Source: Thermodesulfobacteriota bacterium (GTDB lineage Bacteria > Desulfobacterota_D > UBA1144 > Nemesobacterales > CSP1-2). From it: a DNA stretch of 63,156 bases. The stretch spans positions 1 to 63,156 of the forward strand of contig DATMAT010000065.1 in NCBI GenBank assembly GCA_035559815.1, given 5' to 3'. The notes beneath the pieces are model-generated. The model saw only the letters and a program-made list of their open reading frames with translations, did not search any database and was not told the DNA's origin. The position numbers and the translations under genes are program-made. Of the stretch, positions 5,905-58,448 are shown in pieces (the first letter of the stretch is position 1; every line of letters begins with the position of its first letter).

Positions 5905-6747
5905 TCATACCACGGCAAGTGAGAGTTTCCGTTTCATTTTATCATTCTCAAGCTTTTGTTCAAAACTCAACCTGAATGCATCCGGCGTCATGTACCCAAG
6001 GGAGCTGTGGGGGCGGGTAGTGTTGTAGTCCACACGCCATGATTTTATAATTCTTCTAGCTTCCTCAAGGCTCACAAACCAGTGCTGGTTTAAGCACTCA
6101 TCCCTCAGCTTTCCATTGAAGCTCTCTATATAGGCATTCTGCACTGGTCTGCCCGGATCAATAAAATGCAGCTTAACCCCTGCCGGTTTAGACCACTTGA
6201 GCATAGCCTTGCTCGTGAATTCCGGGCCGTTGTCCATTACCAGCACTCCCGGAAGGCCTCTTTCTTCTTTTAGCCACCTTAATGTGCGTATTACACGCTC
6301 ACCGGTAATTCCCCTGTCCACTTCAATAGCAACACACTCACGGGTGAAATCATCCACGACGGTTAATACCCTGAACTTTCTGCCGTCACAAAGACTATCG
6401 CTCATAAAATCCATACTCCAACGCTCATTTGGTTCACCGGGAATTAACGGTACGACCGCCCTGTTATTTACCCCTCGCTTTTTCCCCCTCTTGCGGGGAA
6501 GCTGTAAACCCTCTTCCCTATACATCCTCTCAACCCGTTTATGGTTCACCTGACCTAGCTCTTGTCTCAACAGCACTGTCAGCCTGGGCGCTCCGAAACG
6601 GGGGCGCTGTGCGGCTAATATCCTCAGACGCTCACGAACACCCTCGTCATCCTTAGTCCTGGGCTTGTATCTATACGTCCCTCTACCCAGGCCCGCCAAC
6701 TTGCATGACCGCCGCTCGCTCAGCCCCTCTGACTTCATTACTGTCAC
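5905..6747 (-). CDS. IS3-family transposase OrfB (DDE integrase domain)
   Basis: OrfB holds the catalytic rve domain. An HTH_21-like N-terminal part ([21 protein letters not shown]) is followed by the DDE core. The first Asp is in WSMDFMSD, the second in [10 protein letters not shown], and the Glu in [15 protein letters not shown]. The C-terminus has the usual [16 protein letters not shown]. The ATG at 6747 is probably not the main start. The same frame is open back through the A7G run at 6784-6777, giving [17 protein letters not shown] as the junction, so the working enzyme is most likely an OrfAB fusion made by -1 frameshifting. Transcription runs toward the metal efflux operon. Confidence 0.95.
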
Positions 6748-6770
6748 CGCTTCCCTCTGCTGAGTACGGC

Positions 6771-7037
6771 TTAGTACTTTTTTTCAAGCGCTGCTTTTAG
6801 TGCCCGTATATCCAGGGCCTGCTCCCCAATGATTTGCTTCAACCGTTGGTTCTCTTCCTCAAGGAATTTTAACCGCTCGGCTTCTGGTACGTTCATGCCG
6901 CCATACTTGCTCCTCCAGCGGTAAAACGTCTGCTCGCTTATCCCGTACTTCCGGCATAACTCGGGAACCTTCAACCCTGATTCTTCCTCCCTCAGCACCT
7001 TGATGATCTGTTCTTCCGTGTATCGCCTCTTACGCAT
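6771..7037 (-). CDS. IS3-family transposase OrfA (helix-turn-helix)
   Basis: This 88-residue protein binds the element's inverted repeats. It contains the HTH_Tnp_1 fold ([20 protein letters not shown], then [17 protein letters not shown]) and a C-terminal leucine-zipper helix ([20 protein letters not shown]) for multimerisation. It ends LEKKY at 6771, directly after a slippery A7G run (minus strand 6784-6777) that allows -1 slippage into orfB. A strong AGGAGG ribosome site precedes the ATG. Confidence 0.93.
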
Positions 7038-30961: not shown

Positions 30962-32113
30962 CTAGCTTAGTTCCCCTCTCTCGGAAATGAGCCGGTTTAG
31001 TATCTCCTTCTGGATATCCTCGATTTGAGATTTAACGCGAATGATTTCTTCCGTGGGTTTTCCTCTTTCCTTGCATTCCTCAAATACCGCATCAACCTTG
31101 GAGAGAATTTGTCTTAACTTGGTTTGTGCTTCTATGTTTGCCTTGATGAACATATCCTCGTCCTCCCACTGGCGTTTGGAATAAGATTCTAGCTCCTTTG
31201 CCTGGATAAGCAATTCTCTAAGCCGGTCTCTGTAGCCATGGAGTGATTGGTGAATCACCGCCTGTACCTCTACCCTTTCTCCTGGGTCTCGCCAAAGTAT
31301 GTTTTCAAGGATATTTAGGTCACTTTCCTCGACGTCGGTTCTTCCGTCGAGATAAGCCTTAGTCTTGAGGAGTAAAACCGATTGCTTATATCGTCTATCC
31401 GACAACACTATCCCCTTTTTTTTCAGCTCCCCTCTAATTTGAGAGATTATTTTTACTATATGCGACGGAATGCGCACGTTTCTGGCCTGGGATTGGCCTT
31501 GTTTGATCTCTTCTAATTCGATTGTAGTCTTTTGGCTCATCGCCGCGTCTTCCTGAATCATCTTCAAGAATCGGAAATCCTCTTTTATGTAATCCAGGAC
31601 GTATCTCAGTAAAAACCGGTCATATAGTGCTTCCAGTTCATCTTCTTCCGAGGGGAGCTCGTTGCTTGCACCAAATAATGTAATTAGGGGGATCTGGATA
31701 GCATCCTTTCCGTTGTGAAATATTCTCTCGTTCATGATTGTGAGGAGGCTGTTTAATATCGAGGAACTGGCCTTAAAGACCTCATCCAAAAAAGCGATGT
31801 GGGCCTCGGGCAGTTTGCCGGTTGTAACCCTCCTATATTCATCGTTCTCCAGGCCTTTGAGGCTGACCGCCCCGAAAATCTCTTCCGGGGTGGAAAACTT
31901 GGTAAGAAGCCACTGAAAATACCTCGCTCCTGCTATGCGATTGCAAGTTTCATGAGCGAGCAGGGATTTAGCCGTACCGGGCGGGCCTATAAGAAGTATG
32001 TGATTCCCGGAAACAAGCGCGCAAAAAATTCCGTCTATGACCTCTTCTCTCTCGAAGAACTGGGCCTTCAACTCTTCCTTGATTTTCTTTATTTTTTCTA
32101 TCGTTCTTTCCAT
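30962..32113 (-). CDS. MoxR/RavA-family AAA ATPase
   Basis: This 383-residue AAA+ ATPase has Walker A GPPGTAKS (43-50), Walker B IAFLDEVFKAS and the sensor region ITLFGASNELPSEEDELEALYDRF. These mark a MoxR/RavA type. A RavA-like C-terminal helical extension follows. MoxR ATPases act as chaperones that insert cofactors or assemble membrane-associated complexes. The start overlaps the last codons of gspK by 16 bp, so it is translationally coupled to the secretion operon. That suggests an assembly or remodelling role there, but a partner VWA gene is not nearby. It is the last gene of the cluster. Confidence 0.9.
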   Translation of the reverse strand: MERTIEKIKKIKEELKAQFFEREEVIDGIFCALVSGNHILLIGPPGTAKSLLAHETCNRIAGARYFQWLLTKFSTPEEIFGAVSLKGLENDEYRRVTTGKLPEAHIAFLDEVFKASSSILNSLLTIMNERIFHNGKDAIQIPLITLFGASNELPSEEDELEALYDRFLLRYVLDYIKEDFRFLKMIQEDAAMSQKTTIELEEIKQGQSQARNVRIPSHIVKIISQIRGELKKKGIVLSDRRYKQSVLLLKTKAYLDGRTDVEESDLNILENILWRDPGERVEVQAVIHQSLHGYRDRLRELLIQAKELESYSKRQWEDEDMFIKANIEAQTKLRQILSKVDAVFEECKERGKPTEEIIRVKSQIEDIQKEILNRLISERGELS

Positions 32114-33192
32114 GAGATGATTTTAGTGCCGGATGATGCCTCGTCCTGGCTTTTTCTTATGACTGCTTTAATTACACTTATGGTCGGATTAATCTCTCCG
32201 AGCATCCCTATGGATGTCACGGAGAATACATCACTCTCCCCGGAGTTCAAAACCACGCCGGTCAGGCCGGCGCTGATTCTAGATTCCGGGTCGATGCCCG
32301 AGGCTATTTCCCGGACACTCCTTTGTTTAATTATGGGCTCGTCGACCCTCTCTTCTATAACTGCTTCTGCGATCCTTTCTGCTATGTCATCCGAGACTTC
32401 GTTCGATGAGCCGCTTCCCTGCCTTCGAACAGCCGATACCCCTGCGCCTTTTATTGCTGCCATCATCACGACTTTTGGCGCGGTGCTGAAGTTTACCCTC
32501 TTATCTTTAGGATACACGGTAACATAGTCTTTTATCATGTTGAAGAACTCGTCATCCATGCCATCAATCAGGCGCACTTCCTCGAGACTATCCAGTGGGC
32601 CATTCTTTATGACGTACGGGTTTTCCAGGCTTTCGTAGAATCCGGCGTCGGCGCCGGTCTGGTCCTGGTCGTTTTGGTTCTCTGAGCCCTCTATTGGACG
32701 ATCGAGCCAATTAATCAAGCTGGCTATAAAGCGACCCGACTTGCGGCTGTCCACTCCGAGGAGTCGAAAAAGTTCATTAAGCTCCGTAAGCACCTGCTGG
32801 TCAACCTGGTTGGTAGTTTGACTCACCAGTGCGTTGAGGTTTATTTTGGAGCGTTCGTCGATCACCGTAATAGACACCGTTCCGTTTCCTACCGGAAAGG
32901 AAGGAACATTGACAGCCCAATACCCTTCGGAGTAGCCGGTTTGGTCCCCGAATAATCCGGTGATTTCTTTTATTTCTTCGAGCGGCCGGTTGTTTATGGT
33001 TCCGGCAACCACCTGAACCCCCGATTTTGCTATGTAGCGTGCGATTATCTCGTCCCTGGTATTTGCGGAAATTTCATTGTCAACCTGAGTAAAGTATATA
33101 AGGTCGACCACCAAAGTTGTGAGTATAGCAATGGCTATTAGTACCACAACCAGCACAACTCCTGCCTCTGATTTTCCTTGGTCTGTATTCAT
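32098..33192 (-). CDS. gspK: Type II secretion minor pseudopilin GspK
   Basis: This 364-residue minor pseudopilin caps the T2SS pilus. The N-terminal helix AGVVLVVVLIAIAILTTLVVDL follows a short basic leader and lacks the Glu5 of other pilins, a normal GspK trait. The rest matches the GspK fold: RDEIIARYIAKSGVQV after the helix, then ERSKINLNALV, and LINWLDRPIEGSENQN in the alpha domain that places the calcium site. Its stop overlaps the MoxR start. GspJ is upstream with a 41-bp gap. Confidence 0.9.
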   Translation of the reverse strand: MNTDQGKSEAGVVLVVVLIAIAILTTLVVDLIYFTQVDNEISANTRDEIIARYIAKSGVQVVAGTINNRPLEEIKEITGLFGDQTGYSEGYWAVNVPSFPVGNGTVSITVIDERSKINLNALVSQTTNQVDQQVLTELNELFRLLGVDSRKSGRFIASLINWLDRPIEGSENQNDQDQTGADAGFYESLENPYVIKNGPLDSLEEVRLIDGMDDEFFNMIKDYVTVYPKDKRVNFSTAPKVVMMAAIKGAGVSAVRRQGSGSSNEVSDDIAERIAEAVIEERVDEPIIKQRSVREIASGIDPESRISAGLTGVVLNSGESDVFSVTSIGMLGEINPTISVIKAVIRKSQDEASSGTKIISWKER

Positions 33193-33233
33193 AACAGTCT
33201 TCTTAACTTCGGCTTGGTCGTTAGATGTCCTTT

Positions 33234-33884
33234 CTAATTAGCAGTAGGAATGGGTATCAAAGAGCTGAAGATGAAATCTTCTCCCGTTGCACTTCTCAAA
33301 ATCAAACTCACCTCCAGCGCCTTGGGAAGAGAACCGGTCTGCTTTGAGTCCCATACCTCGATCAGGCCTTCTGCATTGTCCGACACATAGGCCAGGTTAA
33401 AAGCCACTACGCGTTCCGAGATGGGGTATTGGGTCCCGCCGGACTCGGACCCGATTTGGGGATTTTCTCTCCTCATAAGAAGATATAGGTCACTTTCCGG
33501 TATAGGCTGTAGATGGTAACCGATCTCAGCTTGATCTGAGCTCTTTGTATTGATCCCCGCCTCTCGGGAGAGGGAGACAAAATGTATGTGGCTTCGGCCG
33601 TCCTCTTTTCTGCCGATAAAAGACGGGTATGTAGTCTTACCCGATTCCGAGTATACTTTGCCTCTAAGGTATGCTCCATGTAAGTCTTTAGTCATTCTGG
33701 AAAAAATAACGCTGGCCTCATGATAGAGTTCCATAGCGTTCTCTGCACTGTCCTTTGCTTTTATAATCTGAAAAAAAGAGCCGTAGAGAACCGTTAGCAC
33801 AATTGCTCCTATGACGATGGCTAACAATACCTCCAGTAGTGTAAATCCTTCATTCCAGGTCGGCGACCGCCAGCGTGACCTCAA
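33234..33884 (-). CDS. gspJ: Type II secretion minor pseudopilin GspJ
   Basis: This 216-residue minor pseudopilin has the cleavage motif NEG|FTLLEVLLAIVIGAIVLTVLYG with Glu at position 5. A long leader of 13 residues precedes it. The soluble beta-rich domain ends without a lollipop insert. GspJ, GspI and GspK form the tip complex that begins pseudopilus assembly. It overlaps gspI by 35 bp, consistent with coupled translation. Confidence 0.85.
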   Translation of the reverse strand: MRSRWRSPTWNEGFTLLEVLLAIVIGAIVLTVLYGSFFQIIKAKDSAENAMELYHEASVIFSRMTKDLHGAYLRGKVYSESGKTTYPSFIGRKEDGRSHIHFVSLSREAGINTKSSDQAEIGYHLQPIPESDLYLLMRRENPQIGSESGGTQYPISERVVAFNLAYVSDNAEGLIEVWDSKQTGSLPKALEVSLILRSATGEDFIFSSLIPIPTAN

Positions 33885-34296
33885 AATCTTCTTCTCCTTC
33901 GTCCCAAGTGATGAGTAAACGAATCACCCTTATCTCCGTGCCCAACTGGGAAATCTCGAATGGTCTTACCGAGAGAAACCAATTGAACCCGGGTGCTTCC
34001 TCAAATTCTCCCTGCTGCTCTCTTATTTCCGGGAATCCTTCAAGCTCAACCTCCGTTATCTTTTTTTGGGCTAATATCCCGGCTATAGTCAGGTTTTTTG
34101 ATTTAGAGGCTAAAATTAGATTTCTATTCACCGCGGATAAGAGTACGGCTAGGGCTGTCCCCAGTATCACTACGGCAACCAGAACCTCTAGCAGCGTAAA
34201 CCCAAGCTTCTGAGATTTTTGGTGTGCCTTATTTGGTCCTGGTAACAAGCCCTTTAATCTCCGGTTTGGTCTATCTACTGTGAAGAAGGTCGACAT
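33850..34296 (-). CDS. gspI: Type II secretion minor pseudopilin GspI
   Basis: This 148-residue protein has the prepilin site KLG|FTLLEVLVAVVILGTALAVLLS after a 32-residue leader, unusually long. The true start may be an internal site closer to the pilin motif, but no better ribosome site is evident. A minor-pilin domain (LAQKKITEVELEGFPE) matches GspI. It overlaps gspH by 26 bp and gspJ by 35 bp. Confidence 0.82.
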   Translation of the reverse strand: MSTFFTVDRPNRRLKGLLPGPNKAHQKSQKLGFTLLEVLVAVVILGTALAVLLSAVNRNLILASKSKNLTIAGILAQKKITEVELEGFPEIREQQGEFEEAPGFNWFLSVRPFEISQLGTEIRVIRLLITWDEGEEDFEVTLAVADLE

Positions 34297-34783
34297 ACTC
34301 GTCGATTACGATTGTCCCCCCGGTGTAGGGTTTGGTAGCTATCGTATAATTAGCACCGCTTTCCGCTTCAAGGTGTATGACCGCCGGTTCCACAAAACCA
34401 GTTGGCATGAACAGTATAAAAAGATCACCCATCTCCAGGGTTTTTCCGGCGTTTCTCTGGGTAGTAATATCTTTAAAATATACCCCTTCCGGAAGTTTCT
34501 TTCTCCCAAAAATGGGGTCGTTGGGAATCACGAACTCGTTTCCATCCTGAACTTCCACCCAGTATTCACCGTTGCCGACGTCAAACTCTAATTTATATAG
34601 TCGTTTCTTGAATGCGGCTTCATTGTATAGGAGCCTTATTAAACTGCTTAGCCTTCTGGAAGCGCTCTTGATATTAACATCCGCTATGTCTTTAAACTTA
34701 GGTATAGCTACTAAAAAAAAGGCACCGAGTAGGAATATTACTACGGCTAACTCTATGAGTGTGAAACCTCGTTTATCGCTCAT
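34271..34783 (-). CDS. gspH: Type II secretion pseudopilin GspH
   Basis: This 170-residue minor pseudopilin has the prepilin motif KRG|FTLIELAVVIFLLGAFFLVAIP with Glu5 and a short five-residue leader. The N-terminal helix leads into a domain with ASRRLSSLIRLLYNEAAFKKRLYKLEF that fits GspH. The start overlaps the end of gspG by four bases. Confidence 0.85.
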   Translation of the reverse strand: MSDKRGFTLIELAVVIFLLGAFFLVAIPKFKDIADVNIKSASRRLSSLIRLLYNEAAFKKRLYKLEFDVGNGEYWVEVQDGNEFVIPNDPIFGRKKLPEGVYFKDITTQRNAGKTLEMGDLFILFMPTGFVEPAVIHLEAESGANYTIATKPYTGGTIVIDEYVDLLHSR

Positions 34784-35208
34784 TGGATATTACGGCTGGT
34801 GATGTCGTCATCACTCGGGTATAAGCCATCCGGCCCCGGTGATATTATTTCATAAGAGCCATCCTGAGTTTGGTCTGGTCCTATGTATATAAATTCGTTA
34901 CCCCATTGGTCTTTGGGAACCGTGCTCCCCTCCAGGTATCCTTCTGAGGCGTAACGATTGGGAATTCTCCCCACGGTGGGAGGGGTAACCAGGGCTTGTA
35001 GGCTCTGCTGGGTCTCCGGATAAAAAGCATTGTCCAGTTTGAATTGCTTTAAAGCGGTCTCCAGTTGCTTTATCTGAATCTTTGTTGTCTCCAGCCTTGC
35101 TTTATCGAGCCTCCCGATTACATTTGTACCGACAACATAAGCAAGCGCCGCAATGATCACCAAAACTACCATTATCTCTATTAGGGTAAAACCGCCTTGT
35201 GCTCTCAT
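34780..35208 (-). CDS. gspG: Type II secretion major pseudopilin GspG
   Basis: This 142-residue major subunit of the pseudopilus starts MRAQGG|FTLIEIMVVLVIIAAL, with Glu5. The T2SS C-terminal fold is present: YPETQQSLQALVTPPT, then PKDQWGNEFIYIGP and SPGPDGLYPSDDDI, including the calcium-binding loop Asp residues. The length and order are normal. It lies two bases downstream of gspF. Confidence 0.93.
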   Translation of the reverse strand: MRAQGGFTLIEIMVVLVIIAALAYVVGTNVIGRLDKARLETTKIQIKQLETALKQFKLDNAFYPETQQSLQALVTPPTVGRIPNRYASEGYLEGSTVPKDQWGNEFIYIGPDQTQDGSYEIISPGPDGLYPSDDDITSRNIQ

Positions 35209-35210
35209 AA

Positions 35211-36419
35211 TTAACCTCCGATCGTAGATGTTAAATCAAATATGGGTAAAAGAATGGCAAAAACTATAAAACCAACTACCACCCCCATTATTACTATCAT
35301 GATGGGCTCGAGAAGGGAAGTGAGAGCAGAAACGGAAGTTTCTATCTGCAAATCATAAGTATCGGCAATCTTTACGAGCATTTCTTCGAGTTCTCCGGTC
35401 TGTTCTCCGACGGCAATCATCCGGGTCACCAGCGGAGGGAATACCCCGCTATCCCGGAGGGGGCCAGCGATACTTGTTCCTTCCTTTATATTATCTCGTA
35501 CACTTCTGAGGGCGTTGCTATAAACGGTATTTCCGGCGATCGCCTCTGCTATCTCGATGGCGTTGAGTAACGGGATTCCACTCGCCAGTAGTGTCCCCAG
35601 AGTGCGTGTAAACCTGGATATTATAACCATTTTAGCGATTCTACCAAATATGGGGATTCTCAATGTTAAACGATCGAGGAGCATCTTTCCCCTTTCCCTC
35701 TTGCTGAATTTGTATGCGATAAAGGACAGGCCTATTAACAGGATTAAAATAACAAATAGATTCTGGCTGAAAAAGCTGCTGAACCCGATAAGTAGCTGGG
35801 TAATATAAGGAAGGGCCTTTCTGCTTTCTTCAAATATCCGAGCAATTTTGGGAATAACGTAGGACATCATGAAAAAAAGAACCCCGCTTCCTATGAAAAA
35901 CATGAATATGGGGTATACCAATGCACTCCTCACCCGGGACCGGAGCGCAGTCTGTTTTTCCAGAAAATCGGCCAACCTCAGAAGGACTATGTCGAGCGTC
36001 CCGCTCGCCTCGCCGGCTCTCACTATGTTTACGTAGAGGTCGGAAAAAACATTAGGGTGCTCTCTCAGCGCATTATTCAAGGAACTGCCCTCGCTAATCT
36101 TATCCTTTACCTCAGTCAGCACTTGGCTGAGTTTTGCGTCCTCGGTCTGTTCAGAAAGTGCAACCAACGACGCTTCGAGGGGAAGCCCAGCAGATATCAG
36201 GGTGGAGAATTGTCTTGTGGTAAGCGCCAGCTCCGAGGTGCTTATTCCCTTGAATAAAGAAAAGCTTCTGGCCTTTTCTTTCTTGACTTCGCTGAGCGAG
36301 GATAGAAAAACACCCTGGCGCTTGAGCTTCTCGGTTGCCGATTTTGCCGATTCGGCGTCTAACACCCCTTCTACTGTCTTACCTTTTTCGTTGATTGCTT
36401 TGTACTTATAAACGGGCAT
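35211..36419 (-). CDS. gspF: Type II secretion inner-membrane platform GspF
   Basis: This 402-residue polytopic protein has two T2SSF repeats with the motif around FLEKQTALRSRVRSALVYPIFMF and a second at the C-terminus (ALTSLLEPIMIVIMGVVVGFI). It has about three membrane helices and a cytoplasmic N-terminus (MPVYKYKAINEKGKTVEGVLD) that contacts the GspE ATPase. The gspE stop lies 79 bp upstream, across a hairpin (36443-36492). Confidence 0.93.
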   Translation of the reverse strand: MPVYKYKAINEKGKTVEGVLDAESAKSATEKLKRQGVFLSSLSEVKKEKARSFSLFKGISTSELALTTRQFSTLISAGLPLEASLVALSEQTEDAKLSQVLTEVKDKISEGSSLNNALREHPNVFSDLYVNIVRAGEASGTLDIVLLRLADFLEKQTALRSRVRSALVYPIFMFFIGSGVLFFMMSYVIPKIARIFEESRKALPYITQLLIGFSSFFSQNLFVILILLIGLSFIAYKFSKRERGKMLLDRLTLRIPIFGRIAKMVIISRFTRTLGTLLASGIPLLNAIEIAEAIAGNTVYSNALRSVRDNIKEGTSIAGPLRDSGVFPPLVTRMIAVGEQTGELEEMLVKIADTYDLQIETSVSALTSLLEPIMIVIMGVVVGFIVFAILLPIFDLTSTIGG

Positions 36420-36442
36420 CTTACCACTATTTTGTATCGGCG

Positions 36443-36492
36443 ATTTCGGATTGCGGAATAATCAAGTTCGAGATCCGCAATAAATCCGAAAT
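36443..36492. repeat. Intercistronic hairpin between gspE and gspF
   Basis: ATTTCGGATTGCGGA on the left pairs with TCCGCAA...TCCGAAAT on the right, an imperfect hairpin with a 4-base bulge. No T-tract follows. It could moderate expression between the two genes or be a dispersed repeat; nothing decides this. Confidence 0.5.
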
Positions 36493-36498
36493 TGTTAC

Positions 36499-38199
36499 TT
36501 ACGTCTCGTCCTCAGTAACTCTCATAACCTCATCTATAGAAGTTAAACCCCTCAGAACCTTCTCCGCTCCGTCCATCCTGAGTGTAGTCATTCCGTTCTC
36601 CAGGGCTTTTCTCTTTATAGTCGAGGAGTCGGTGGTAGCCAGGGTAAGGCCTCTAATTTCATCGTCTATCAGCAATATCTCGAATATTCCGCTTCTACCG
36701 CTGTAGCCGGTGCCAAGACATTCATTACAACCTTTGGCCCGGTGCAAGACACCCTGCTGAAGGTCTTTTCTATCCAGCCCTATTCTGGCCAGTTCATCGT
36801 CTATGGGCACGTAAGGCTCTTTACAGGACTTGCAAAGGAATCGAATGAGTCTCTGGGCGACCACGGCCATCAGGGAGGAAGCGACCAGAAAAGGCTCGAT
36901 TCCCATATCGATGAGCCTGGTTATGGCGCTGGCGGAGTCATTGGTATGGAGCGTCGAAAAAACTAGGTGACCGGTAAGGGAGGCGTGAATGGCTATATCG
37001 GCTGTCTCTCTATCCCGGATCTCTCCCACCAGTATAACGTCGGGGTCCTGACGGAGGATTGACCGTAGTCCGTTAGCAAAGGAGAGATTTACCTTGGAAT
37101 TTACCTGGATCTGATTGATTCCTTGAATTTGATACTCTACCGGGTCTTCAATGGTAATGATTTTTTTGTCGGGGGAGTTGATTCTTTCTAGGGCCGCATA
37201 GAGGGTGGTTGTTTTTCCGCTCCCGGTGGGCCCGGTTACCAGGATAATACCGTGAGGCCGATGGATGAGCGAATTTATGGTATGCAGTTTTTTTCCTTCA
37301 AGCCCTAGGTCCTCCAGGCTGAGGAGAACCGAAGAGCGGTCTAAAAGCCTCATCACAACGCTTTCTCCCCATGATGTAGGAACAGTGGAGATACGAACAT
37401 CTACGTCCCGTCCGGCCACTTTTACACGAATCCTACCATCCTGTGGTTTTCTCTTCTCCGCGATATCGAGTTCGGCCATGATCTTTACTCTCGAGATTAT
37501 CGACGACTGAAGCCTTTTGGGGACCGAGGTCACCCTATGCAAAAGACCGTCTTTTCTAAACCGGACCAGTAAGTCCTTCTCGAAACACTCCATATGGATA
37601 TCGCTGGCCTTCTCCTTAACGGCTTGAAAGAGAAGCGAGTTGACGAACCTAATTATAGGGGCCTCATCCTCTGCTTCCAAGAGGTCTTTGGGCTCTTGAA
37701 ACTCCGACTCAGTGATCCCTAGGGTCTCGTCTTCGATCTCGTCCCTCATCTCCTTGCCGCGTTCATACACCTTGTTTATGGAATCGAGGACAACTTGGCT
37801 TAAAGCCAGCATAGGCTCCACTTCGCACCCAAATAGCGATTTTACTTCGTCGAGCACGTATAAGTCGATTGGAGGAGCCAGTGCCACTATAATTTTCTCC
37901 TCCCCCCTTTTTAGTGGAATCAGCCTATACTTTTTGGCAAAGCTTATGGGAAGGAGTTTTACTAGTTCTGAGTCGATATCCTTTTCGGAAATACTATATA
38001 TATATGGGATTTCATAGAAATCGGATAGAACCTCAAGAACCTCCTTGTCGCTCAGTACCTTTGATTTCAGGAGCGTCTCTTCAAACCTCTCTCCATTCCT
38101 GGCTAGAAGCTCGTCTATCTTAACCCAGGCTTCCGGGTTCCTCTGGCTTATAATCTCTTCAAGGCTCTTCATAGCTTCAATAACCTCCCTGTTTCTCAA
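36499..38199 (-). CDS. gspE: Type II secretion ATPase GspE
   Basis: This 566-residue AAA-type secretion ATPase powers pseudopilus assembly. The N-terminal T2SSE_N region is followed by Walker A GPTGSGKTTTLYAAL, the Asp box, Walker B ILVGEIRDRETADIAI, and the zinc-binding tetracysteine motif RFLCKSCKEPY...GCNECLGTG. The His box is ASLTGHLVFSTLHTND. It overlaps gspD by 23 bp. An RFRKDGLLHRV element in the N2 domain is normal. Confidence 0.95.
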   Translation of the reverse strand: MRNREVIEAMKSLEEIISQRNPEAWVKIDELLARNGERFEETLLKSKVLSDKEVLEVLSDFYEIPYIYSISEKDIDSELVKLLPISFAKKYRLIPLKRGEEKIIVALAPPIDLYVLDEVKSLFGCEVEPMLALSQVVLDSINKVYERGKEMRDEIEDETLGITESEFQEPKDLLEAEDEAPIIRFVNSLLFQAVKEKASDIHMECFEKDLLVRFRKDGLLHRVTSVPKRLQSSIISRVKIMAELDIAEKRKPQDGRIRVKVAGRDVDVRISTVPTSWGESVVMRLLDRSSVLLSLEDLGLEGKKLHTINSLIHRPHGIILVTGPTGSGKTTTLYAALERINSPDKKIITIEDPVEYQIQGINQIQVNSKVNLSFANGLRSILRQDPDVILVGEIRDRETADIAIHASLTGHLVFSTLHTNDSASAITRLIDMGIEPFLVASSLMAVVAQRLIRFLCKSCKEPYVPIDDELARIGLDRKDLQQGVLHRAKGCNECLGTGYSGRSGIFEILLIDDEIRGLTLATTDSSTIKRKALENGMTTLRMDGAEKVLRGLTSIDEVMRVTEDET

Positions 38200-41143
38200 A
38201 CCCCCTATCTTGAAGGAGCATGTTTCTTTTCTGCCTTTCTTCGAGCACTTTCTGCATGTCGGTCTCTGTTTCTATAATTCTGGGGGTTAGGAGAATCATA
38301 AGATTAATCTTTCTGCTTTGTCTTTGCTTGAATTTGAATAGGTATCCAAAAAGCGGAATATCGCCTAGAAGCGGAACCTTGTTCTCGACGACTGTTTGCC
38401 TATCCTGAACCAGCCCACCAATAACGATTGTCTGGCCGTCTTTTACGATGATGGAAGAATCGGCGGAACGGGTAGTTGTAGTGATTCCGAACTCCTCTGT
38501 ATTAAGGTCAGCGGGAGCGGGGCTTGTAGCAGAAACCTCGGTATGTATGATTAGGTTTAAATAATCGCCCTCACTAATTTGTGGGGTTATTCCAAGTATA
38601 ATTCCGACTGGCTGACGGTCTATGGTCTGCACGGTGACCCCGGTTTCGGAGACGGTGCTTCCGGTGGGGAACGGGATGACATCGGCCACTACTATTTGTG
38701 CCTCTTCGTTATCGGTGGTGACGATGCTAGGGGTTGAAAGAACGTTCACATCCGTTAGCGAGGCTAAGGCTTCAAAGAGTAGAGTAAAAGAAGGGATTTC
38801 AACACCTCCAATCTCAACTGATTCACCTATTACCCCTAAGAAACCTCCTGATATGCTCGAGAGTGCGGCGATTGCCGAACCGGTACTAGTAGCAACCCCA
38901 AGTAGGCTTGGAATTCCCGGAAGCTGAGTTCCGCCAAATCCAAGGTCGTCGCCGTCATCAAAGGTGAAACCAAAGCTCAAATTTGTTCCTATGGCTCTCA
39001 GTTGTTCGAGACCCACTTCAAGAATAGCCGCCTCGACAAATACCTGTTTTCTCCTAACGTCCAGCTCATCTATCACCCTCTTTATCGTTTCATAATCTTT
39101 GCGAGAACTCACGATTATGACCGAATTCGTAGCCGGGTCTGCCGTGATTCTTATCCCTTCTGCCTCCGCTACTACTGCTGCGCCCCCAAGCTCTCCGATA
39201 TCTTCCCTCTCAATCCGTCCAGTTGTTTGTCCAAAGCCAAGGGTGCCAGTTTGTCCTCTTCGATATTGACTGCCGTATTGAGTGCCAAAGGTTCCGGTAC
39301 CGAAAGTTCCGGTACCGAAAGTTTCTCCGACACCCCCCGTTGTTCTGCCGCGTATGCCGCGGGTGGTTGTAGTTACTCCTGCTCCTCCCCCTCCGATTAA
39401 TCCGGAGATAACTCCAACCATTTGTTCGGCATCGGCGTTTTGAAGGCGAATCACGTAGATGCCTTGCTCTGGTTGGTCAACCTCTACATCCAGCTCTTTT
39501 ATTACTGCTTTAATTTTTTTCATATCCTCGGGGTAGGCAATCACTATAAGCGAGTTTGTTCTCTCATCGGGTATAACCTTGAATTCGGCCTGTCCTGTTG
39601 CTTGTCCGGACGTAGTTGGTGTTCTTTGAGGGGTTCTAGTGGTTGTTGTGCGTCGAGTGGGGGTTTGGGTGGTTTGGGCCGGAGCTGCCGGCGCTCTTCC
39701 ACCGAAGATCTCAATTACCTTAGCCGCAACATCTACAGCATCAGTATGCTCTAGTTTTATGAATTCGATCTCGGTTTCCAGGTCTATATTCTCTATGATC
39801 TTAAGTACTTTATTTAGGTTGGATACAGTATCTATGATAATCAGGGTATTCAAAGCAGGATATACCAATATATCTCCTTCCCGAGAGATAAGCGGTTTGA
39901 GAATGTTTGCCACTTCGTTGGCGTTTATGTTTTTGAGGGGAACCAGCCTGGTGACGAATCTATCCGAGGGTTCGGCGTATTTAGTCCCGAATTCCGTAGG
40001 TAGAGTCTCGGTTTTAATGTCTCTCTTCGGTACTATCTTGCTTATACCGTCCTTTTTCACTATGGCGAAACCATTTAAATCCAAAATCGCCTCGAATAGT
40101 CTTAAGGCGTTTTTCTTGTTGAATCCTCCCCGGGGTGATATAACCGTGACTTTCTTTGCTTTTACCGATTCATCCAGTAGAAATGTCTCTCCGGTAATTT
40201 CACTTATCGTCTGGATTAAGTCTCTTATGTCCATTTCGCTCTGCAGATTTACTATTTCTTCACCCCTCGGAGTCGGTTCTGGTTGAGGGGGTTCCTCTTG
40301 GAATTCGGCCTCGATTTGCTCTGGGGGTAGGGGTTCTTCTTCCTCTTCTACTTCTACTTCAACCTCCTCTTGCGCCTGGGCCGGCTGTTGAACCGTTGTA
40401 ATCTGTCTTGGCCCGTTGGCCTCGGCCGCGAATGTCAGGTTGTCCAACGGGTGGGATTTCTTCACACCTTCGGGTTCACCAGGAGCATTAACTTTCTTTT
40501 CTTCTACCCTTTTTAATTGCCGGAGTTCTTTCGTTGTGTCGGTACTTGGCTCAATCTCATTTTTGGTTTTAATAGCTGCATCTTTTGTGGTGTCATCTAC
40601 TTCTTCGTTATCGGTGCTTCTTGGAAATGTTTGAGTAGGTTTAAGCCGGCTACTCACATTGGACCGCTCCACCTGCTTAGCTACTACTTCTTTCGTTGTC
40701 GTTTGTTTTATTTTTTCACCTTTAGGGAGTTTAGCATTAGATGGGATCTCCAAAATTTGTCCTACCTTTATCCGGTCATCTTTTAGGTTGTTGATTTCTT
40801 TGAGTTCTTTGACCGAAACCCCAAACTTCTTCATAGCTATATTGTAGAGGGTGTCTCCTTCTACTACCTTATAGTAAATCGTTGTCTCGACAGAATCGCT
40901 TTCCGGGAGTCCCCTTTGTGTAGATGGGGTTTCATTGGCGGTAAGAAGCTCTTCATTTTTTGCCACCGAATTTATTTTGCGGTCTTTTACATAGCCTGTT
41001 ACTAGCCCTCCGTGGCCGGATTCCCAGGAAAAATACCCTTTTGGTTCTGTATCCTTGTGCGTCTTGGAAAAAACGAATTTTATACTAGCGCCTAAGCCAA
41101 AAACAATAGTCAATGTCAAAACAGCTTGAATAGACCATCTCAT
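38177..41143 (-). CDS. gspD: Type II secretin GspD with N-terminal LysM domain
   Basis: This 988-residue secretin forms the outer-membrane pore. The signal/anchor helix is at 1-25. A LysM domain is clear at 91-134 (YYKVVEGDTLYNIAMKKFGV, then DRIKVGQILEIP), which is unusual for GspD. A long Thr/Lys/Glu linker (about 140-280) follows, then N0 (MDIRDLIQTISEITGETFLLD), N1 to N3 modules, and the secretin domain with VIGGLVQDRQTVVENKVPLL and NLMILLTPRII. A FGTGTF repeat near residue 615 lies in the N3 insert. The protein is considerably longer than common GspD proteins because of the LysM and linker. It probably docks to peptidoglycan without a separate pilotin or GspA/B, which is inference. Confidence 0.93.
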   Translation of the reverse strand: MRWSIQAVLTLTIVFGLGASIKFVFSKTHKDTEPKGYFSWESGHGGLVTGYVKDRKINSVAKNEELLTANETPSTQRGLPESDSVETTIYYKVVEGDTLYNIAMKKFGVSVKELKEINNLKDDRIKVGQILEIPSNAKLPKGEKIKQTTTKEVVAKQVERSNVSSRLKPTQTFPRSTDNEEVDDTTKDAAIKTKNEIEPSTDTTKELRQLKRVEEKKVNAPGEPEGVKKSHPLDNLTFAAEANGPRQITTVQQPAQAQEEVEVEVEEEEEPLPPEQIEAEFQEEPPQPEPTPRGEEIVNLQSEMDIRDLIQTISEITGETFLLDESVKAKKVTVISPRGGFNKKNALRLFEAILDLNGFAIVKKDGISKIVPKRDIKTETLPTEFGTKYAEPSDRFVTRLVPLKNINANEVANILKPLISREGDILVYPALNTLIIIDTVSNLNKVLKIIENIDLETEIEFIKLEHTDAVDVAAKVIEIFGGRAPAAPAQTTQTPTRRTTTTRTPQRTPTTSGQATGQAEFKVIPDERTNSLIVIAYPEDMKKIKAVIKELDVEVDQPEQGIYVIRLQNADAEQMVGVISGLIGGGGAGVTTTTRGIRGRTTGGVGETFGTGTFGTGTFGTQYGSQYRRGQTGTLGFGQTTGRIEREDIGELGGAAVVAEAEGIRITADPATNSVIIVSSRKDYETIKRVIDELDVRRKQVFVEAAILEVGLEQLRAIGTNLSFGFTFDDGDDLGFGGTQLPGIPSLLGVATSTGSAIAALSSISGGFLGVIGESVEIGGVEIPSFTLLFEALASLTDVNVLSTPSIVTTDNEEAQIVVADVIPFPTGSTVSETGVTVQTIDRQPVGIILGITPQISEGDYLNLIIHTEVSATSPAPADLNTEEFGITTTTRSADSSIIVKDGQTIVIGGLVQDRQTVVENKVPLLGDIPLFGYLFKFKQRQSRKINLMILLTPRIIETETDMQKVLEERQKRNMLLQDRGFEKQGGY

Positions 41144-41273: not shown

Positions 41274-42200
41274 TCATTTAACCGAGTATTCGTAGGTAAA
41301 CTTTTGTCCCCGCCTGGTTAGATTAATATTAAATTGGCTTTCTCCCCTAAGCTCCTCGAAGAGACTAAGGGCATTTTCAACGTTGCTCAGCTCTACATCA
41401 TTTATCTTGTGCAATATATCGCCATTTCTGAGTCCGATCATGAAGAAAATGCTATTTGGCCTTATAGCGAAGAACCGAAGGCCGTCTTCCTGGGGAATAA
41501 CCCGGGCTTGGGTTAGAAGCTGATTTGGGTCGCTTAGGAGTTCATCCAGCATTTTGCGGTCGATTTCATATTCACCCTCGTTGACCTCCTTTATGCCTTC
41601 AGCTTCGCTCTTGGGTAAGACTGCACTGCGGCTGCTCACGATCGAACTCCTATCCAGTGCGGATACTTGGCCTAATCTAGATTTGTTGTCTGAAGATGCA
41701 TTTTCGTCCAAATCTTTTTTGCATCTTATGGTTTCTGCGCCGTCGCTGCGCTCTACCAGCGCCCTGCAGTTTTCGATCTTTGCCAGTTTTACCCTTTCCG
41801 ATTGGATTATATCAATTAGCTCTCCCTCCAGGTAGCCCCTAACTTTATTCGTATCCAAGTTTTTTATAATGGCTATGGACCTCTCCCCCGGCTCGATGGC
41901 GGTGCCAAGCAATTCGAGGTTGAGCGTGGTTTGAGGTGCATCCTGTATTAAAGAGTTGCCCGATGTGGTGCTCTGTAGTCCGAATATATTCCTCTTTAAA
42001 ATTATTTCGTAGGAGCTTCGTGAGTTTAATTGTTTGAGTTTTTGGCCTTTGCTTTCTGAAGATGTAGTAGTCCCGGGCTTTGTGTTCGATAGACCTCCTT
42101 TTATTCTGTCATTCACTATTTGGGCTAGTGTATAAGAGATCCCAACTATTAGTATGAGGTTAACAACCCATATATATTTTTTCAGGACTGATATAAGCAT
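41274..42200 (-). CDS. gspC: Type II secretion inner-membrane protein GspC
   Basis: This 308-residue bitopic protein couples the inner-membrane platform to the secretin. It has an N-terminal membrane helix (YIWVVNLILIVGISYTLAQIV), an HR domain (about 95-170, LNLELLGTAIEPGERSIAII) and a C-terminal PDZ domain (about 225-305, IRPNSIFFMIGLRNGDILHKI). It is the first gene of the operon, with a strong promoter 28 bases upstream of the ATG and no good Shine-Dalgarno. The length and order are normal. Confidence 0.92.
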   Translation of the reverse strand: MLISVLKKYIWVVNLILIVGISYTLAQIVNDRIKGGLSNTKPGTTTSSESKGQKLKQLNSRSSYEIILKRNIFGLQSTTSGNSLIQDAPQTTLNLELLGTAIEPGERSIAIIKNLDTNKVRGYLEGELIDIIQSERVKLAKIENCRALVERSDGAETIRCKKDLDENASSDNKSRLGQVSALDRSSIVSSRSAVLPKSEAEGIKEVNEGEYEIDRKMLDELLSDPNQLLTQARVIPQEDGLRFFAIRPNSIFFMIGLRNGDILHKINDVELSNVENALSLFEELRGESQFNINLTRRGQKFTYEYSVK

Positions 42201-42228
42201 TTAAGTAAATTAATTAATTTTCGCTAAA

Positions 42229-42257
42229 AAAATAAAGTTGTTTGCTTTATATGTCAA
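42229..42257 (-). promoter_or_regulatory. Sigma-70 promoter for the gsp operon
   Basis: Minus strand TTGACA (42257-42252), 17-base spacer, TATTTT (42234-42229). Transcription would begin near 42221, giving a short leader of about 20 nt. It lies within the 65-bp gap after galT, which runs the same way, so the gsp genes have their own promoter. Confidence 0.6.
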
Positions 42258-57948: not shown

Positions 57949-58129
57949 GTTTTGGCTTCATTCTAGTACGAGCCCTGTCCATTAAAGAAATAACTGATGG
58001 TTATTGGTTATGTATAACCGGATTACCACTTTATCGACTTGGGCTTTTCATCGATTGAGTTATACGAATAAGACGGATACTATCCTATGTTGTTGATTTT
58101 CAATCGAAAATTTCTTAAAAAATTACCAC

Positions 58130-58158
58130 TTGACATTTAAAGTAAAATACTTTATTTT
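58130..58158 (+). promoter_or_regulatory. Sigma-70-type promoter of a candidate small RNA
   Basis: Plus strand TTGACA (58130-58135), 17-base spacer, TATTTT (58153-58158). The same hexamers and spacing occur upstream of gspC. No gene follows directly; a terminator lies about 55 bases past the predicted start. Confidence 0.45.
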
Positions 58159-58164
58159 TAAATA

Positions 58165-58258
58165 TAAACTTAAATTTATAGCTTAACAGGTCATCCTCCA
58201 TCCTCCTTTAAGAGAACGGGAGTAATCCTAATAATTGGGGTTACTCCCGTTTAAATTA
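58165..58258 (+). ncRNA. Candidate small RNA with two anti-Shine-Dalgarno motifs
   Basis: The predicted transcript runs from the promoter above to the hairpin at 58215-58251. It contains GGTCATCCTCCATCCTCCTT at 58189-58208, whose ATCCTCCTTTA end closely resembles the anti-Shine-Dalgarno tail of 16S rRNA. A terminator hairpin follows directly. There is no significant open frame. On the opposite strand the same bases read as GGAGG directly abutting ATG, too close for normal translation. Expression is not shown. Confidence 0.45.
58215..58251 (+). terminator. Hairpin terminator of the candidate small RNA
   Basis: The arms AACGGGAGTAA (58215-58225) and TTACTCCCGTT (58241-58251) are perfectly complementary with a 15-base loop. 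The stem is followed by TTAAATTATA, which is A/T-rich but not a pure U run, so efficiency is uncertain. Confidence 0.6.
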
Positions 58259-58448
58259 TATACCGTGTCTATTTAGGGAAATAAGAGACAAAAATCAGAG
58301 TGTGATGCGGGTCTAGAAATATAGTGATGGTATGTATTCTCTGCTGGCCGCAGTCCTGTATCAATTTCGATATCGCGGCTAGGATGGGTAAAATAAATTT
58401 TAATAGTTGATTTTCGACATAATATCTCCCTAAATTCAGCCAACAAAA

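Follow-up and report, generated by a model that had tools for sequence, protein, structure and literature searches.

A stretch of 63,156 nucleotides (contig DATMAT010000065.1 of GenBank assembly GCA_035559815.1, a Thermodesulfobacteriota bacterium; henceforth termed the window) contains a predicted gene for a small RNA (sRNA) of ca. 94 nt (58165..58258, + strand) that carries a tandem anti-Shine-Dalgarno (anti-SD) core. Comparison with 44 genomes of the order (Candidatus Dadabacteria) suggests that this RNA is probably a stand-alone, multi-copy, trans-acting anti-SD sRNA that would block, independently of Hfq, translation of mRNAs for exported proteins, above all the secretin PilQ. If so, this uncultivated lineage would possess a regulator that is conserved, present in several copies, and independent of Hfq, and for which both a regulon and a conserved target can be named. 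Such a system would connect type II secretion with the type IV pilus secretin and with whether a message depends on an SD site. It also suggests a simple escape from a broad anti-SD RNA for regulon genes, i.e., having no SD site.

A conserved sRNA gene with an invariant unpaired core

A first-pass annotation of this DNA had proposed a candidate sRNA at 58130-58258, and its promoter, C-rich tandem motif, and hairpin were all found where it had placed them. The promoter (58130..58158, + strand) consists of a -35 box TTGACA (58130-58135), a 17-nt spacer, and a -10 box TATTTT (58153-58158), from whose position the 5′ end of the RNA is predicted; the 3′ end is set by the terminator. The unpaired tandem core (58192..58211, + strand) comprises box 1 CATCCTCC (58192-58199) and box 2 ATCCTCCTTT (58200-58209). 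It is followed by an intrinsic-terminator hairpin (58215..58251, + strand) supported by folding and covariation, in which the inverted repeat AACGGGAGTAA/TTACTCCCGTT forms a perfect 11-bp core within 18-nt arms (58215-58232 and 58234-58251) that are 89% complementary. The U-run behind the hairpin is weak in the window copy (TTTAAATTAT), which corrects the initial observation; many relatives have CCCGTTTTT.

Given the AT-rich surroundings, promoters of the TTGACA/TATTTT type are about as frequent as expected by chance (20 sites versus 15.7 expected), and a single ATCCTCCTTT is found in one third of shuffled windows. Conservation is the decisive evidence for the gene. The tandem CCTCCATCCTCC occurs once in the window, and the 94-nt RNA folds with -30.8 kcal/mol (z = -5.1 versus shuffles). 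Minus-strand coding behind a start-site-like AAAGGAGG-N7-ATG was rejected, as the frames are very short and promoter and terminator point the opposite way.

By DNA search, the element occurs in most genomes of the order. Matches outside its own genus and family have E-values from 2e-38 to 1e-19, and identity in other families goes down to ca. 71%. Nearly all of the 44 genomes carry it, in one to about five copies and usually in more than one. The promoter is kept in copies of other families, and the order and orientation of promoter, core, and hairpin are fixed in all copies. In data with one genome per species, 49 stretches contain the exact 20-nt core CATCCTCCATCCTCCTTTAA. Nearly all are Dadabacteria sRNA copies with the same gene layout, some filed as Desulfobacterota, Thermodesulfobacteriota, or Deltaproteobacteria metagenome-assembled genomes (MAGs). 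A match in Rossellomorea was set aside as chance. In genus g11 (family f6), most genomes keep one copy, whose core reads UCAUCCUUCAUCCUCCUUUUU. Five near-matches in genus g13 such as TTTAAGAAGGATGGAGGATT, which end in ATT and resemble coding sequence, were left uncounted. Family f5 lacks both the sRNA and its promoter module.

We aligned 30 diverse copies, including variants first located via their promoter and leaving out one divergent copy (L147, core UCAUCUCUCCAUCCUCCUUC). The segments CAUCCU (DNA CATCCT) and AUCCUCCUU (DNA ATCCTCCTT) are the same in every copy, in contrast to the two bases that separate them. The unpaired CAUCCUNNAUCCUCCUU thus stays constant while the sequence of the terminator hairpin shifts and its pairing persists. 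All 13 pairs of the terminator stem show compensatory changes, and pairing is retained in 91.9% of alignment cells, a figure that falls to 75.4% after shuffling and to 58% or less after sliding. The consensus fold contains this helix alone, with the core unpaired; a CUUAA...UUUAAG stem that would close the C-rich loop is predicted for certain copies, that of the window among them, but is missing from the consensus and is not claimed as conserved. Both the C-rich motif and the hairpin proposed by the first-pass annotation are therefore conserved in related genomes, and covariation supports the hairpin. These data also bear on whether the element is a conserved DNA element, such as a binding or repeat site, that is never transcribed. 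The promoter module does constitute a conserved DNA site in its own right, yet such a site would account neither for the compensatory changes in the hairpin and the fixed orientation of all parts nor for the conserved complements of the invariant core at pilQ starts described below, and we regard this explanation as barely credible.

Three syntenic places recur across the order. The window copy represents the first, close to ispE; the gene downstream of it is lipoprotein-like and has a BamE match in Pfam that is weak and below threshold. The second lies beside a bactofilin-like gene, with SCO1-like and PCu(A)C-like genes downstream of it, and the third precedes a rhodanese-like gene (names in the latter two by sequence resemblance). 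With the next gene on the same strand within ca. 250 bp at all three, the element could act in cis, as the leader or an attenuator of the gene behind it (lipoprotein, SCO1, or rhodanese). These genes are, however, mutually unrelated, the terminator is strong in all copies, and the sRNA persists where the gene behind it has been inverted, exchanged for another, or lost, as at several loci and at the second copy of the home genome, which still adjoins the bactofilin-like gene even though SCO1 is gone. The sRNA gene is therefore independent of its downstream neighbor, and we consider a cis-acting role very improbable.

pilQ as the best-supported candidate target

A search of the 44 genomes for the 20-nt complement of the core, allowing up to 3 mismatches, returned sRNA genes for nearly all perfect matches. 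The one exception, in HR37 (L063), is an mRNA start and not an sRNA gene: the start of a pilQ-like secretin gene, encoding AMIN, STN, and Secretin domains, is a perfect 20-nt complement of the sRNA. More generally, AGGAGGATGG is present at the pilQ start in 16 of 21 sRNA-bearing genomes with pilQ (G000, G001, G002, G004, G005, G006, G008, G013, G019, G020, G023, G027, G035, G037, G041, and G043), spanning families f1, f3, and f6, with diverged flanking bases, and in neither of two pilQ genomes without the sRNA. As background, AGGAGGATGG occurs at one of 712 genes of G008, where ATGG follows AGGAGG in one of 82 AGGAGG-bearing genes. The median predicted duplex with the sRNA amounts to -25.4 kcal/mol for pilQ. 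Six other gene families gave about -4 to -8 kcal/mol; gspD was left out of this comparison because its set was contaminated by pilQ matches. One exceptional genome, G003, has the altered pilQ start AGGAGGATAG (GGAGGATAG; L327), and one of its several sRNA copies (L141; cf. L142) reads CUAUCCUCC. Together, CUAUCCUCC and GGAGGATAG form a possible, if anecdotal, compensatory pair. Judged by complementarity, pilQ is the best-supported candidate target and the solid part of the target assignment.

The conserved complement is also informative about a suggestion, made alongside the initial observation, that the RNA might act as a sponge. An unpaired, C-rich tandem motif present in several copies per genome might titrate another sRNA or an RNA-binding protein. 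No partner sRNA was seen, though, Hfq was not found, and the clear mRNA complement at pilQ points elsewhere; the sponge idea thus gained no support, and we attach hardly any probability to a sponge or protein-binding role.

Broader targets and the Shine-Dalgarno background

A wider effect on mRNAs for exported proteins is suggested by a comparison of SD extensions. Genes with the sRNA-like form AAAGGAGGATG encode N-terminally hydrophobic (exported) proteins in 36 of 47 cases, versus 13 of 25 with the 16S-like form AAAGGAGGTGA (one-sided p = 0.03, with orthologs that are not independent). As a separate observation across the 44 genomes, genomes outside family f1 have almost no SD sites of the form AAAGGAGGTGA and use AAAGGAGGATG.

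Several observations weigh against this assignment of targets. For pilQ, the site is weaker or altered in five of the genomes with the sRNA, the counts are not independent since pilQ orthologs share descent, and genus g11 has the sRNA without a recognized pilQ, so that pilQ cannot be its sole target. For exported proteins in general, strong SD sites already tend to sit on such genes, which make up about half of those with an SD of 7 or more and 29% overall, and ranking by duplex energy over 800 kb of G008 did not enrich exported genes beyond SD strength. For these reasons, broad targeting of exported-protein mRNAs is suggestive. The notion in the first-pass annotation that the RNA could block many mRNAs is plausible and partly supported.

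The same data are relevant to a more general role as a translation brake or decoy of the 16S tail, in which the RNA would pair with any strong SD, lower the SD-led class of messages, and favor the SD-less gspC, with pilQ as just one strong site. The similarity of AUCCUCCUUU to the 16S tail fits such a brake, as do the correlation of sRNA and 16S duplex energies in G008 (r = 0.73) and the lack of residual enrichment of exported genes. However, the conserved part of the core runs past the anti-SD into CAU/CCAU, and pilQ retains an AUGG after GGAGG that the 16S tail does not pair, which makes a general brake unlikely. The home MAG yielded no 16S rRNA gene from which to read the exact tail.

A search for Hfq (PF17209) matched none of the 44 genomes, while a control search recovered Hfq in E. 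coli, B. subtilis, and others. The absence of a detectable Hfq fits a C-rich RNA that acts alone.

A promoter module shared with type II secretion genes

Nearly all sRNA copies have in common a 57-bp promoter module of fixed spacing that contains two 17-bp palindromes, presumed to be operators; two copies (L052 and L054) have diverged promoters. The first palindrome, O1, follows TTGAC-N3-(T/A)(T/A)AAG-N7-CTTTA and lies between the -35 and -10 boxes (in the window TAAAGTAAAATACTTTA, 58138..58154, + strand). The second, O2, follows TTAA-N9-TTAA and is located at the start site (in the window TTAAATTTATAGCTTAA, 58170..58186, + strand, just 3′ of the predicted start), at a fixed 32-bp spacing from O1.

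Using a sequence-only model of this module (R1), we found matches in 41 of the 44 genomes. In the 4-Mb home genome, exactly four strong sites were detected: the two sRNA genes, gspC in the window, and a two-gene unit without Pfam match. The second module of the window (42201..42257, - strand; R1 E = 1.7e-10) directly precedes gspC (41274..42200, - strand; T2SSC, Pfam 5.5e-11), whose ATG follows O2 immediately, leaving a leader of ca. 20 nt from the predicted start site without an SD site. The remaining type II secretion genes continue downstream (32098..41143, - strand), with the secretin gene gspD identified by Pfam and E-K by position and sequence resemblance. The T2SSC domain was found in 30 of the 44 genomes, 18 of them above cut-off. 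Beyond the sRNA copies, the module precedes gspC in many genomes and gspL in relatives (weak GspL_C and PilN Pfam matches), where gspL resembles gspC in most genomes in having no SD site. In G009 it also occurs before a gene for a trypsin/PDZ DegP-like protease. A search for the regulator via weak promoter classes turned up only gspL and chance-like sites.

In the mechanism that we consider probable, a regulator would bind the two palindromes and thereby govern a small regulon composed of the sRNA copies, gspC and the type II secretion genes that go with it, gspL, and, in some genomes, envelope genes such as that for the DegP-like protease. The layout, with one palindrome between the -35 and -10 boxes and one at the start site, is typical of repression. 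From promoter and terminator we infer a transcript that would end at the intrinsic terminator and leave CAUCCUCCAUCCUCCUUU unpaired. Without Hfq, CAUCCUCCAUCCUCCUUU may pair with the extended SD site AAGGAGGAUGG in messages that encode envelope and exported proteins, chiefly PilQ, and the resulting duplex would keep the ribosome from loading. The gspC and gspL messages would escape because they mostly lack an SD site. A bolder proposal, which we put forward tentatively and rate well below an even chance, is a secretin switch: one regulator would turn on both the SD-less type II secretion messages and a 16S-tail-mimicking sRNA that silences the SD-led messages of pilQ and other exported proteins, leaving its own regulon immune.

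The two-gene unit (L086, L091, and L093; C47:55393 in the home genome) encodes a protein of 133-144 aa with one hydrophobic segment, followed by one of ca. 209 aa ('MEIL..WENIR'), neither with a Pfam match. Its place behind the module makes it a good candidate for a member of the secretion/envelope regulon.

Relationship to known sRNAs

At the gathering scores of Rfam 15, tRNAs were the sole matches, both in the window and in 12 loci that carry a copy, and a permissive scan of 58000-58400 gave just plant miRNA and similar chance matches. An unpaired anti-SD stretch, an intrinsic terminator, and an independent promoter, the features of trans-acting anti-SD sRNAs, are all present.

In Listeria, the near-identical LhrC1-5 use UCCC motifs to pair, independently of Hfq, with a surface-protein mRNA at its ribosome site; they are envelope-linked and, under LisR control, respond to envelope stress via LisRK (PMC4132741). 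At the level of features, our sRNA resembles them in its several copies per genome, two redundant anti-SD boxes in each, and, as proposed here, independence of Hfq and a tie to the envelope. It differs in presenting its anti-SD as a complete CCUCC tandem within a single unpaired stretch, instead of UCCC in loops and a linker, in its two-palindrome promoter instead of LisR control, and in its phylum. Homology to LhrC found no backing, with no Rfam match and an exact core confined almost entirely to Dadabacteria. The alphaproteobacterial CCUCCUCCC-loop sRNAs SmelA075/A099 (PMC3927594) and CcsR1-4 (PMC8307010) likewise repeat a full anti-SD motif and occur as homologous copies, but they present it in hairpin loops, whereas the core described here is unpaired, reads CCUCCAUCCUCC, and has its own promoter. 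CcsR/CuckooRNA is co-transcribed downstream of a DUF1127 gene. Nearly all copies here have their own promoter, and no small gene recurs directly upstream of them, as judged without a profile search for DUF1127. RsaE and other UCCC sRNAs of low-GC Gram-positives direct a C-rich unpaired motif against SD sites (class in PMC4132741). This likeness is offset by their shorter motif (UCCC), the absence of an Rfam match here, and a different phylum and regulon. The comparison with CcsR/Cuckoo and RsaE drawn in the first-pass annotation therefore applies to the working principle and does not extend to kinship.

Enterobacterial envelope sRNAs of the MicA/RybB type repress mRNAs of outer-membrane proteins, depend on Hfq, and have sigma-E promoters. 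Repression of outer-membrane protein mRNAs within an envelope program is what we propose here as well, in this case with neither Hfq dependence nor a sigma-E promoter; a sequence relation was looked for only via Rfam, and none was found. By analogy, the likeliest reading is that our sRNA works like LhrC and the CCUCCUCCC-loop sRNAs as a demonstrated member of neither. It would thus represent a new family of a known functional kind, unusual in its tandem anti-SD core and in its coupling to SD-less secretion genes. No sRNA of Candidatus Dadabacteria was described in the literature searched. The multi-copy nature, the use of one double-palindrome promoter for the sRNA and for genes of type II secretion, and the conserved complement at pilQ go beyond what had been noticed in the window.

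Further observations

The exact core was absent from the viral contigs searched. One contig assigned to 'Candidatus Brocadia sp. WS118' (L033, PHFX01000095.1) harbors, next to genes resembling SCO1 and PCu(A)C, an sRNA gene of the normal Dadabacteria type and is probably mis-binned. Two loci, L051 (UBA2774) and L146 (G033:C203), each contain two tandem sRNA copies 270-350 bp apart, a sign of recent local duplication. Elsewhere in the window, two adjoining open reading frames (5905-7037, - strand) resemble an IS3-type transposase pair by sequence.
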